IMG/VR virus record: IMGVR_UViG_3300032323_003003 | Location: 1 to 25,195 of that record | Length of the DNA: 25,195 nt | Strand: one strand, 5' to 3' | Source of the DNA: a virus | In this document: piece after piece, positions 1 to 14,147 of the stretch | How positions within the stretch are numbered: the stretch's first letter is position 1 | How the letters are laid out: every line of letters starts with the position of its first letter | Translations under genes and position numbers: made by a program | The notes under the pieces: model-generated | The model's input: only the letters and a program-made list of their open reading frames with translations | What the model was told of the DNA's origin: nothing | Database searches by the model: none

Positions 1-203
1 GGTACGGGTACGGGGAAAACATCGGAGAGATCGCCGGCCATCAGATCCGAGCGTATCCCCCGTGGGATGGCTATCTCGCGGTCGGCTGCGAGCTGCACGC
101 CGTAGCGTGGTGGCGTGACAACTGGCGCGATCTGGCCGAGCGGCACGATGCGACGGTGACTGAGGCGCAGGCGACGGGGGTGTTAGCGAGGGTGGCACAA
201 TGA
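1..203 (+). CDS. C-terminal part of an unidentified small protein
   Basis: The open frame begins at base 3 and runs to a TGA at 201-203; its start lies outside the window. The 66 visible residues are rich in Trp and aromatic residues (…AVAWWRDNWRDLAERHD…), end in VLARVAQ and show no motif I recognise. The stop overlaps the ATG of the next ORF (ATGA at 200-203), the same coupling seen throughout this operon, which supports it being a real coding frame. Function unknown. Confidence 0.6.
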   Translation, partial: YGYGENIGEIAGHQIRAYPPWDGYLAVGCELHAVAWWRDNWRDLAERHDATVTEAQATGVLARVAQ

Positions 204-331
204 CCCTCGTCGCCCGCACCCTGTGCCGCGTCCTCGGGCATCGTTACGACACGGAGCGCAAACACTTTCCGAGCAGCTCCCCGGCGTTCATTGACTGGCC
301 GCGGTGCCAGCGATGCAGGGAGTGGGCGTGA
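200..331 (+). CDS. Small Cys-pair (zinc-ribbon-like) phage protein, 43 aa
   Basis: Starts at an ATG overlapping the previous stop and ends at TGA 329-331, which overlaps the GTG at 328 of the next gene. The peptide has an N-terminal LCRVLGHRYD segment and a C-terminal CQRC pair followed by EWA. This resembles the very small 'LGHR…CxxC' proteins common in phage accessory operons, probably a half zinc knuckle. The role is unknown. Its 4-base overlaps on both sides are the main support for it being translated. Confidence 0.55.
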   Translation: MTLVARTLCRVLGHRYDTERKHFPSSSPAFIDWPRCQRCREWA

Positions 332-949
332 TCGTCCTCAGCCTCTGCGACCGCTCCTGCCGCGCTGTTATGCCGTGGGCGGAGGCCGGCTACAAATGCA
401 TCTGCGTTGACGTGGAGGCCGGCGACTCGCCGCACCCAAACATCGAGACCGTGCGCGCGGACCTGCGCTGGTGGCTGCCGCCGCGCGGGGAGTACGCCTT
501 CGCCATGGCGTGGCCGCCGTGCACCCATCTTGCGGTGAGCGGCGCCCGGTGGTTTGCCGACAAGGGCCTGTCCGCTCTCGTAGAGGGGCTCGAGCTCGTC
601 GAGCGGTGCCGGGCTATTTGCGATTGGCTCGGCTGTCCGTGGATGCTCGAGAACCCGGTCGGGGTGCTTGGCAGCTACTGGCGAGCGCCGGACTACACGT
701 TCAACCCGAACGAGTTCGCCGGCTATCTCGATGAGCCCGATGACGAGGCGTACACCAAAAAGACGTGTCTCTGGGTGGGGGGGGGGCTTTCGGATGCCGC
801 GGCGTGACCCGGTGGCTGCGAGCGGTGGGTCGAAGATGCACCGGTTGCCGCCGTCTGATGAGCGAGCGACCCTTCGAAGCTTGACGCCCAACGGGTTTGC
901 TCGAGCGTTGTTCGTTGCCAATGCGCCGCGGCAGGGAGGGCGGAGCTAA
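328..949 (+). CDS. DNA cytosine methyltransferase-like protein, frameshifted at a G10 tract
   Basis: From GTG 328 the frame encodes an S-adenosylmethionine-fold N-terminus (VLSLCDRS, then …YKCICVDVEAG), a PPC motif near residue 63 (WPPCTHLAVSGARW) and ENPVG near residue 108. These correspond to the catalytic-loop and ENV-type motifs of C5-cytosine methyltransferases and the phage 'PPCTH…SGARW' family. In this frame translation stops at 807, just after a run of ten G (777-786). The expected C-terminus (GGSKMHRLPPS… LRS.TPNGFARALFVANA) continues in the next frame to TAA 947-949. Nine G would join both halves into about 206 aa. The gene overlaps its neighbours on both sides. The break could be a sequencing error, a real mutation or phase variation. 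Methyltransferase activity is inferred from motifs, and GTG 304 or ATG 313 are alternative starts. Confidence 0.7.
777..786 (+). repeat. G10 homopolymer at the frameshift point
   Basis: Ten consecutive G follow the Cys-Leu-Trp codons of the methyltransferase-like gene. One base fewer restores the full frame. The tract is long enough for slipped-strand mispairing, and also a classic place for sequencing indels. Confidence 0.9.
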
Positions 950-1179
950 TGGGCCGCGGCGTATGCAGTGGGTGCGGCTACTCGCTCTGGACCGAAGCGG
1001 GCAGTGAAGAGCACGCATGGAGCAAGGACAGCAAGCACCGCGCTGAGCTTTGGGAAATGGTCCCGCACAAGTTCCTCTCCGCGTACGGATGGGACGTTCC
1101 TCCGCATGAGGAGTTCCAGAAACGCTCGGTCTTGGTCTGGTGGTGCCCGAAGTGCAACCACTTGCAGGTGTTCCCGTGA
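949..1179 (+). CDS. Zinc-ribbon small protein, 76 aa
   Basis: ATG 949 overlaps the TAA of the preceding gene (TAATG). The protein has an N-terminal CSGCGYS pair (about residues 5-8) and a C-terminal CPKCNHLQ pair (about 68-71). Four cysteines in CxxC…CxxC spacing are a typical zinc ribbon. The middle (EEHAWSKDSKHRAELWEMVPHKFLSAYGWDVPPHEEF) is charged and aromatic. Such ribbons bind DNA or act as protein adaptors; which applies here cannot be told. It sits between the methyltransferase-like gene and the HTH/integrase pair and ends in a GTGA overlap. Confidence 0.7.
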   Translation: MGRGVCSGCGYSLWTEAGSEEHAWSKDSKHRAELWEMVPHKFLSAYGWDVPPHEEFQKRSVLVWWCPKCNHLQVFP

Positions 1180-1535
1180 CAGCACCCAGGCTCCTCACCC
1201 CCGCCGATGTCTCTGAGCGACTTTCGATACCGCTCCGGTCTGCGCGCGCAAGGATGCGAGAGATTGGGCTCTTGCGGATGGGCCGGCTTTTGCGCGTGCG
1301 CGAGGACTCGCTCGAGAAGTACCTTGCAAGGTTAACCGAGGCACCATGCAATACCGACTCTTTCAGCGTAGCAGCGTCTGGTTTATCGACATCCGCGACG
1401 AACGGTTCGAAGGGGGCCGACTTAAAAAGTCTCTTAGAACAAGAGATCGGCCGGAAGCTCAAAGGCTCGCGTCCCAAATCATCGCCAAGTTCTCGCCGCA
1501 GGCCATCGGCTACAAAGCACTCGGAGCGGCCTTGA
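1176..1535 (+). CDS. Excisionase-like HTH (MerR/HTH_17-type) DNA-binding protein
   Basis: GTG 1176 overlaps the TGA of the zinc-ribbon gene. Residues 5-50 (LLTPADVSERLSIP…RMREIGLLRMGRLLRVREDSLEKYL) match the winged-helix pattern of excisionase/HTH_17 proteins: a 'tpadvae.L.i' helix, a recognition helix and a 'lRvredsle.yl' C-terminal strand-helix. Position immediately upstream of the integrase supports a role as recombination directionality factor. The frame stays open for another 62 codons inside the integrase gene, giving 119 aa with a basic, Ser-rich tail of low complexity. The tail may or may not be functional. An upstream in-frame ATG at 1140 lies inside the previous gene and is less likely. 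Confidence 0.72.
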   Translation: MTAPRLLTPADVSERLSIPLRSARARMREIGLLRMGRLLRVREDSLEKYLARLTEAPCNTDSFSVAASGLSTSATNGSKGADLKSLLEQEIGRKLKGSRPKSSPSSRRRPSATKHSERP

Positions 1536-2329
1536 CCGATGTCGCCAACTCCAAGAACAAAACGGCCACCATCGCGAGCTACCTCGCCAAGGTAAAGCCC
1601 CTGACCCGGGTGCTCGGTGAGGAGTTCAATCTCCTTACGCTCGATGACGAGACCGTGGGCGCCTACATCTCCACGCGCAGGGATGGCAAGGTCTCGGACC
1701 ACACCATCCACAAGGAGCTATCGCTCCTTCGGCAGACGTGGGCGAGCTACTGCCCCGGGCGCCCGAATCCGGTGCCGAAGTTCTCCGCGAGCTACAAGCC
1801 CCGCAAACGCTTCCTCACGGTCACAGAGGCCGCCAAGCTCCTCCGGGCTGCCAACCGGAGCCAGTTCGCTCCGTGGCTCTGGATGGCGCTCTACGCTGGC
1901 TGTGAGGTCGGGGCGCTGGTGCGGATGGACTGGGGCAGCATCGATTTCGAGATGGGGCAAATCCACGTGCTTGGCACCAAGGCCGAGACCCGTGACCGGT
2001 ACGTGCCGCTAAGCGCTGATTTGCGAGCGTACCTCGAGACGTTGGACAAGGATGCGCCCCTGCTCTGCCGGTGGCCATCTGCGCAAAGGTGGCGCCAGAT
2101 GAACACGTGGTGCACGAAGTCCGGCGTGGGGCACGTCTCTATGACGGATCTGCGGCGGACGTTTGGTAGCTGGCTAAAGCAGGCCGGGGTCGATTCCAAG
2201 CGGATTGCGGACCTCATGGGCCACACGTCAACGATCATGGTGGACCGGGTCTATGGGCAGCTCGACGCCAAGGCGTATCGGGATGCGGTGGCGCAGCTGC
2301 CGAGTTTGCCGAAGTTGGTGGTGGTGTGA
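1346..2329 (+). CDS. int: Tyrosine-family site-specific recombinase (phage integrase), 327 aa
   Basis: The N-terminus (MQYRLFQRSSVWFIDIRDERF…LKKSLRTRDRPEAQRLA) is the usual arm-binding start of phage integrases; residues about 60-145 form the SAM-like core-binding domain and 155-327 the catalytic domain. Visible catalytic positions are Lys212 (LGTK), Arg270 (MTDLRRTF), His293 (MGHTS) and Tyr303 (DRVYGQL). The first catalytic Arg position is Glu187 (YAGCEVGALVRMDW, where TGLRxGEL-type sequences carry Arg), and the HxxR His is Thr267. Length and domain order are normal. ATG 1346 has GAGG just upstream. It lies beside the putative attP at 2796-2851. It would catalyse integration, but the Arg-to-Glu change leaves its activity uncertain. 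Confidence 0.9.
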   Translation: MQYRLFQRSSVWFIDIRDERFEGGRLKKSLRTRDRPEAQRLASQIIAKFSPQAIGYKALGAALTDVANSKNKTATIASYLAKVKPLTRVLGEEFNLLTLDDETVGAYISTRRDGKVSDHTIHKELSLLRQTWASYCPGRPNPVPKFSASYKPRKRFLTVTEAAKLLRAANRSQFAPWLWMALYAGCEVGALVRMDWGSIDFEMGQIHVLGTKAETRDRYVPLSADLRAYLETLDKDAPLLCRWPSAQRWRQMNTWCTKSGVGHVSMTDLRRTFGSWLKQAGVDSKRIADLMGHTSTIMVDRVYGQLDAKAYRDAVAQLPSLPKLVVV

Positions 2330-13244: not shown

Positions 13245-14147
13245 TTAGCCGCGCGCCTCCACCTTGGAGAGCCGTTTGTCGAGGCTGGCCGCGGCAGCCG
13301 CTAACGCGCCGGCAAGCTTGGCACCGTGAACAGCCTTGCCCTCGCTGGTCTCGATGACCGCCTGCCTGCCGAGCCGGGTCTTCTCCAGATCCTGCGCCAT
13401 GATGCCGAGCTGCTCGCCCTTGCCGTGCTTTTCGTCTTTGTACTTGTACTTGTACGCCTTGAGCGCGCGCAGAAACTGAGTGGCGTCGTCGTCGGCGCCT
13501 GCGATGTCCTGCTTGAGACGACGGTCGGACATCATCGCTATGCCAGCTCCGCCCATTGCAGCCCCCAGCAGCCCCTCCGTGGCAGTCGGCGCGCCTGCGA
13601 GGGCACCATAGCGACCCGTACGAGCGTTCTCGATGCCTTGGAGGCCCTGCATCTCGCTTTGCCGGGACTGAAGCCCCACGTTCATACCGCCGGTCATGCG
13701 AGCCTGTTCGTTCTGAGCAAATAGCTTCTGCGCAAGGTCGCGCTCCTGCATCGCCGCGAGCGCAGCCTGTCCGCTCATCCCTGCCCCGAGGCGGGCCGAG
13801 TTCATCATGGCCGTGCGCGCTGCCATCGCTTGGTTCGCGGGGCTTGCACCCGCCGCCATCGATTGTTGAGCAGCCTGGTTTTGCTGGAGGCCCTGGCGAA
13901 GCTGCTCGGTCGAGACGAGGTTTCTGCCCTGCATCTGCGCGCCAAGGGCTGCGCTCAGGCCGCCAAGGTTTCTGTCGCTGCGCCCGTAGTTCACCTGCCC
14001 CTGGTTGGCGAAGTTGTGGGCCTTGTATGCGGCATAACCAACGTCGCCGTTCGGATCGACGTCGCGAAACTCGTTATTCCCGCGCTCAAGCCCTGAGCGG
14101 AGCTTTTTCGCGATGAAACCCTGCGGGGTGTAGTCATACCAGGCCAT
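13245..14147 (-). CDS. Virion protein with C-terminal S74-type intramolecular chaperone, 300 aa
   Basis: ATG 14147 has AAGGGAG upstream. Residues 1-200 are rich in Gln, Ala, Met and Asn, helical and without beta-helix repeats, like small internal virion proteins. From Ser207 the sequence SDRRLKQDI… RALKAYKYKYKDE… GIMAQDLEKT… AVHGAKLAGALAAAAASLDKRLSKVE matches the S74 autoprocessing chaperone of endosialidases and neck appendages. Ser207 and Lys212 have the i/i+5 spacing of its catalytic dyad, so cleavage before Ser207 is predicted. The family is known for trimeric fibres; finding it on a non-fibre protein beside ejection-type genes is notable. A short fibre role remains possible. Confidence 0.8.
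   Translation of the reverse strand: MAWYDYTPQGFIAKKLRSGLERGNNEFRDVDPNGDVGYAAYKAHNFANQGQVNYGRSDRNLGGLSAALGAQMQGRNLVSTEQLRQGLQQNQAAQQSMAAGASPANQAMAARTAMMNSARLGAGMSGQAALAAMQERDLAQKLFAQNEQARMTGGMNVGLQSRQSEMQGLQGIENARTGRYGALAGAPTATEGLLGAAMGGAGIAMMSDRRLKQDIAGADDDATQFLRALKAYKYKYKDEKHGKGEQLGIMAQDLEKTRLGRQAVIETSEGKAVHGAKLAGALAAAAASLDKRLSKVEARG

Follow-up and report, generated by a model that had tools for sequence, protein, structure and literature searches.

A virus gene that appears to be broken by a run of ten guanines is, with a probability that we put at about 0.62, an intact and selected C5-cytosine methyltransferase gene with a slipped-strand contingency tract, which would switch reversibly between ON and OFF states and would have been captured OFF. 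The gene lies in the window, meaning the whole stretch of 25,195 bases that was analyzed, which is one whole virus record of the metagenome type without a larger assembly behind it. Comparison of relatives shows recurrent gain and loss of single and double bases at the tract site, and such copying slips can probably switch the gene on and off. In the proposed mechanism, the poly-G in a tri-glycine motif is one base beyond its in-frame length and would turn the gene OFF at translation. Replication slippage would then flip the product between a full-length form (206 aa) and a truncated form (159 aa), which is without the conserved RSxTPxGFA end and presumably inactive.

The tract consists of exactly ten G at positions 777-786 on the plus strand of the window sequence, and every other homopolymer in a scan of the whole window is 6 nt or shorter. 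It is positioned at the border between two frames of one phrog_757 C5-cytosine-methyltransferase-like gene. The first frame, from the GTG at 328, reads MIVLSLCDRS...PPCTHLAVSGARWF...ENPV...KKTCLWVGGGLSDAAA to the TGA stop at 805-807 and holds both the motif IV-like PPC and the motif VI-like ENP, while the second frame, 3' of the tract, reads ...GGGFRMPRRDPVAASGGSKMHRLPPSDERATLRSLTPNGFARALFVANAPRQGGRS to the TAA stop at 947-949. The phrog_757 'DNA methyltransferase' profile (247 positions) matches the two frames consecutively, over 17-168 and then 161-221 (E-values in Table 1). The tri-glycine of the conserved motif is encoded by the G-run, and with nine G the codons read TGG GTG GGG GGG GGC TTT. 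The original prediction of a gene split into two frames at this run is confirmed, and so is its statement that nine G would give one intact protein. The codon-use score strongly prefers frame 1 up to position 776; 3' of the tract, frame 2 is top of the three yet weak (-6 vs. -16 and -18), and the codon bias is weaker in the C-terminal half (C half), with a GC3 of 0.72 vs. 0.86 in the N-terminal half (N half). A run of G9 or longer arose in 7 of 100 dinucleotide shuffles, and the bare presence of the tract is unremarkable at such a composition. What matters is that the G10 is placed exactly at the frame change and within a conserved motif. The C half is 60% identical to the relative L113 and the N half 58%; being as similar to relatives as the N half, the C half is therefore not decayed.

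Table 1. Coordinates of the features discussed (window positions unless a relative is named).
Feature	Position	Strand	Basis or remark
Small upstream ORF, 43 aa	200..331	+	TGA 329-331 overlaps methyltransferase GTG 328-330
OFF reading frame as sequenced, 159 aa	328..807	+	GTG start; PPC and ENP motifs; phrog_757 E 9e-51
G10 tract in conserved motif KKTCLWxGGGFxMP	777..786	+	Sequence and relatives
Methyltransferase C-terminal half, other frame, FRMP...RSLTPNGFARALFVAN...	788..949	+	phrog_757 E 4e-8; 60% identity to L113
Downstream ORF, 76 aa, Cys-rich	949..1179	+	ATG overlaps ON-frame stop (TAATG, 947-951)
Tyrosine integrase	1346..2329	+	Phage_integrase PF00589, phrog_1
phrog_22007 gene (relatives)	L344:3598-3801; L345:4678-4881; L341-L343 ~3597; L490:1428-1632; L491:1433-1632		

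Because its start overlaps the ORF before it and its ON-frame stop the ORF after it, the two-frame gene slots exactly into an operon. The overlap of the ON-frame stop with the next ATG resembles that of translationally coupled genes, and the two may be coupled; translation in the OFF frame stops 142 nt before the ON-frame stop. No family matches were found for the adjoining ORFs at 200..331 and 949..1179. The integrase gene marks the virus as a temperate phage or a descendant of one. The head and tail genes occupy the other strand of the window, and a search via the portal protein found no near relatives of the phage. The gene at 13245-14147 on the minus strand encodes a virion protein, likely a tail spike or fibre, whose Peptidase_S74 domain is an intramolecular chaperone of the endosialidase type.

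By fold and motifs, the product is filed as a predicted C5-type DNA methyltransferase. The PPC, ENP, KKTCLWxGxGFxMP and RSxTPxGFAxA motifs are common to the relatives, C66 and E109 are invariant, and P64 and N110 are each conserved in at least 90% (in A2). For L113, an intact relative with 58% identity, the AF2 model reaches a pLDDT of 93.7, and its top 24 PDB matches in Foldseek are all C5-methyltransferases, including DNMT3A, M.HaeIII and DNMT1 (E 3e-5 to 8e-4, probability 1.00, with a TM-score of only ~0.5). This high-confidence model and the phrog_757 match support the methyltransferase call made originally. The fold of the intact relative and the PC and EN motifs are like those of M.HaeIII, DNMT3A and DNMT1, but the window enzyme is much shorter, and its read-through protein had no match in Pfam (DNA_methylase included) or NCBIfam, and none in a PDB sequence search, where a profile gave one meaningless match only. 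The same family and the KKTCLWxGxGF motif are found in phrog_757 phage proteins such as Azospirillum phage Cd gp13, Jilinvirus ECO1230-10 Orf43, phage D6 Orf64 and Arthrobacter phage Kovu gp54. Unlike the window gene, five phrog_757 phage genes read in sequence (and an unverified ET-SD-TH record) are in frame with a motif G-run of 3 or fewer. A search of E. coli genomes found nothing close to the ECO1230-10 gene, and the distant matches to the L043 gene were on plasmids only.

The family set comprised 225 distinct members from all loci, with a tract defined as a G-run of 7 or more at the motif. Such a run is carried by 43 of the 225 members, and 13 of these 43 are out of frame, vs. none of the 172 assessable members without a tract. 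The contrast holds against the 106 of the 172 that had not been selected for being in frame (13/43 vs. 0/106, Fisher 2e-8). Tract lengths range from 7 to 15. The offset from the in-frame length is -1 in L034, L325, L342, L520 and L522, +1 in the window, L062, L090, L097, L100 and L105, and +2 in L038 and L074, and there are also in-frame expansions, G11 in L094 and G15 in L099. The last of these (~10636), on a contig of 42% GC, has five or more glycines at the motif. Relatives of the window gene above ~60% identity were not found.

The features expected of slipped-strand switching are seen in this set, namely a repeat inside the ORF that sets the frame, ON and OFF lengths among relatives, and a selected downstream part in OFF copies. 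Frameshifts at the tract are confined to members whose G-run is 7 or longer, so slippage in the family, as originally proposed together with phase variation, is strongly supported by the counts and the mixed offsets, while switching in the window phage itself is what we infer from them. In two clades sampled via the N-terminal half only, a run of 7 or more is present in 18 of the 35 members with a readable motif, and the gene is OFF in 8 of these 18 and in none of the 17 others. A FastTree of N halves, in which many branches are weakly supported, has 25 changes of the tract label, compared with a mean of 40 after shuffling; well-supported branches force at least 13 of the changes, and OFF has at least 9 origins. 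When IMG/VR was scanned with a pattern of the motif containing G8, dozens of the hits were true members of the family. Sampling that was blind to the tract gave runs of 1-6 in 106 of 108 members and of 8 or more in only 2, and long tracts are therefore a minority trait; the idea of a tract in the whole family was given up.

The maintenance of the tract differs with the group considered. Family-wide, ~20% of the codons for glycine are GGG. A GGG pair occurs in 8 of 114 in-frame members and, in other ORFs, at 3-4 of 108-161 tri-Gly sites (p 0.08-0.2). GGG at the first codon is linked to GGG at the second (Fisher 7e-4), an association confounded by ancestry and GC. Judged by codon usage, the family-wide tract frequency is close to chance and selection is hardly visible. 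In the clade of Pseudomonas prophages, all 10 members have GGG at the two tract Gly codons although synonymous sites are near saturation. All the other conserved glycine columns vary, and elsewhere a pair with one GGG has GGG at both codons with a probability of 0.07. The tract itself played no part in finding most of these members. A class-wise host search for tract-bearing genomes gave few true members, and the small neighboring gene then led to Pseudomonas. The codon pattern indicates that the tract is kept beyond codon drift in this clade.

The small gene adjoining the methyltransferase in the Pseudomonas clade belongs to phrog_22007, is 68 aa in frame and begins ATG-YCT-A-C(n). Its poly-C varies from 5 to 10 and is in frame only at C9 (L344 and L345, with a conserved body), while C8 (L343), C10 (L342) and C5ACC (L341) are out of frame. 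The gene is also shifted in the complete phages UFJF_PfDIW6 (C10) and phiAH14a (C8), where no CDS is annotated across its body. Out-of-frame copies, too, have a conserved body. That a single locus has two variable tracts is hard to put down to chance.

Other G/C-runs were seen as well. Runs of G9-G10 stand a few bases 5' of an ATG in three phage contigs (L006 ~9222, L011 ~3431, L013 ~7766), and in such a ribosome-binding-site position the tract length could tune translation. The contigs of Geminisphaera colitermitum TAV2 (L118, L129, L166, L167, L174, L175, L186, L194, L197, L198, L212 and L221) have many G-runs of at least 13, which commonly follow a GT-rich stretch, and their G/C runs of 8 or more number 5.6 per 10 kb vs. 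2.4 in other loci selected with the same pattern.

The original prediction named sequencing or assembly error as the main rival for a lone case, and the relatives weaken that rival, although it keeps some weight for the window contig. The real tract would then be in frame and the contig off by one G, which is rather unlikely, even though the contig rests on one virus record of the metagenome type, errors are classically expected at a G10, and one error would account for everything in a window whose structural module has no obvious frame breaks elsewhere. By the IMG identifier convention, which we take to tell genome-type from metagenome records, OFF is at least as common among tract members in the former (7/18) as in the latter (5/24). 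Of three Pseudomonas genomes, one (L521) is ON, and OFF copies with a -1 offset lie in a complete chromosome of 6,179,442 bases (L520) and in a 5,817,980-base contig (L522). Offsets of +2 (L038, L074) are unlikely as single errors, tract lengths are equal within near-identical pairs from independent assemblies (L057/L079 and L061/L107), and the poly-C of the neighboring gene family is shifted in the complete published UFJF_PfDIW6. The equal lengths within L057/L079 and L061/L107 also count against switching. A true pseudogene, in which the window phage has lost its methyltransferase for good, is highly improbable. The weak codon bias of the C half would fit such a loss, but all strongly conserved C-half residues are present without a stop or second indel, the C half has diverged as much as the N half, and the ON stop still looks coupled to the start that follows it. 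Among relatives, dN/dS in the C halves behind OFF tracts is 0.03-0.05 (L344 and L342, against ON relatives) and 0.12-0.20 in the all-OFF trio L314/L315/L316 (0.12 for the pair L314/L316); the L520 C half has a pN of ~0.03-0.05 vs. a pS of ~0.7. N-half and C-half identities were compared on selected pairs. By these measures, the reading beyond broken tracts is under strong purifying selection, except in L523 (G1173), a decayed Pseudomonas prophage that was left out, whose methyltransferase has a second frameshift and whose small gene has a stop. Breaks shared by relatives with decayed downstream codons, which would have told against switching, were thus found only there.

A mutational hot spot without adaptive switching is a doubtful reading, and one that deserves serious weight. 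A Gly-rich motif and GGG codons would make a slippery run by chance, and the OFF copies would be short-lived losses in prophages under relaxed selection. The tract frequency near codon chance across the family, the repeated gain and loss of the tract and the one decayed prophage agree with it, but GGG-GGG in all ten Pseudomonas members despite near-saturated synonymous divergence, a second tract of the same locus that behaves alike and the constrained C halves retained in OFF members do not. Programmed ribosomal frameshifting or transcriptional slippage on the G-run, which would give a full-length protein from the sequence as it is, seems quite improbable. Long G-runs are slippery, and C halves stay selected though three related prophages (L038, L074 and L105) are all OFF; however, the offsets vary by member (-1, +1 and +2) and the gene is plainly in frame in most of the family. 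Programmed frameshifting in a fixed direction was rejected on the differing offsets. Leaky slippage and switching could coexist.

The preferred reading, a reversible contingency tract, has counterparts in known systems. In Campylobacter phages, as related in PMC11868660 and PMC10877375, hypermutable poly-G tracts switch a receptor-binding protein (Sorensen et al., 2021, Cell Rep 35:109214). There too a phage gene is switched by replication slippage in poly-G, but the target in that account is the receptor-binding protein, whereas in the window it would be a DNA methyltransferase. Homopolymer-switched methyltransferases are known in bacteria, for example the Type IIG enzyme of Campylobacter jejuni NCTC11168 (PMC4889913). 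Phase-variable bacterial Type III mod, Type I and Type IIG genes likewise have a homopolymer in the methyltransferase ORF and are turned ON or OFF by frame. However, these enzymes belong to restriction-modification systems, while the window gene encodes a short (~200 aa) phage orphan enzyme of the C5 type for which no restriction partner is recognised. A search confined to the open-access literature found no phage methyltransferase reported to be switched by a homopolymer.

If the reading is true, annotations that show genes of this kind as broken, or as a pair of ORFs, would be wrong, and the fixed motif of the tract means that existing read sets are screenable at once. Methylating and non-methylating members would coexist in a population of phages or lysogens, with bet-hedging as the likely benefit: methylation would shield the progeny DNA from some restriction enzymes, at the cost of exposure to modification-dependent enzymes of the McrBC/MspJI type. 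Modification-dependent restriction enzymes attack modified phage DNA (PMC12707154). A broader proposal, which we hold tentatively and at slightly less than even odds, is that phrog_757 orphan methyltransferases repeatedly evolve poly-G contingency tracts at one Gly motif, that populations of mixed methylation hedge against restriction and modification-dependent restriction, and that Pseudomonas prophages carry a two-tract phase-variable locus of methyltransferase and small gene. Phage and lysogen populations would in that case hedge between the restriction of unmethylated and of methylated DNA.
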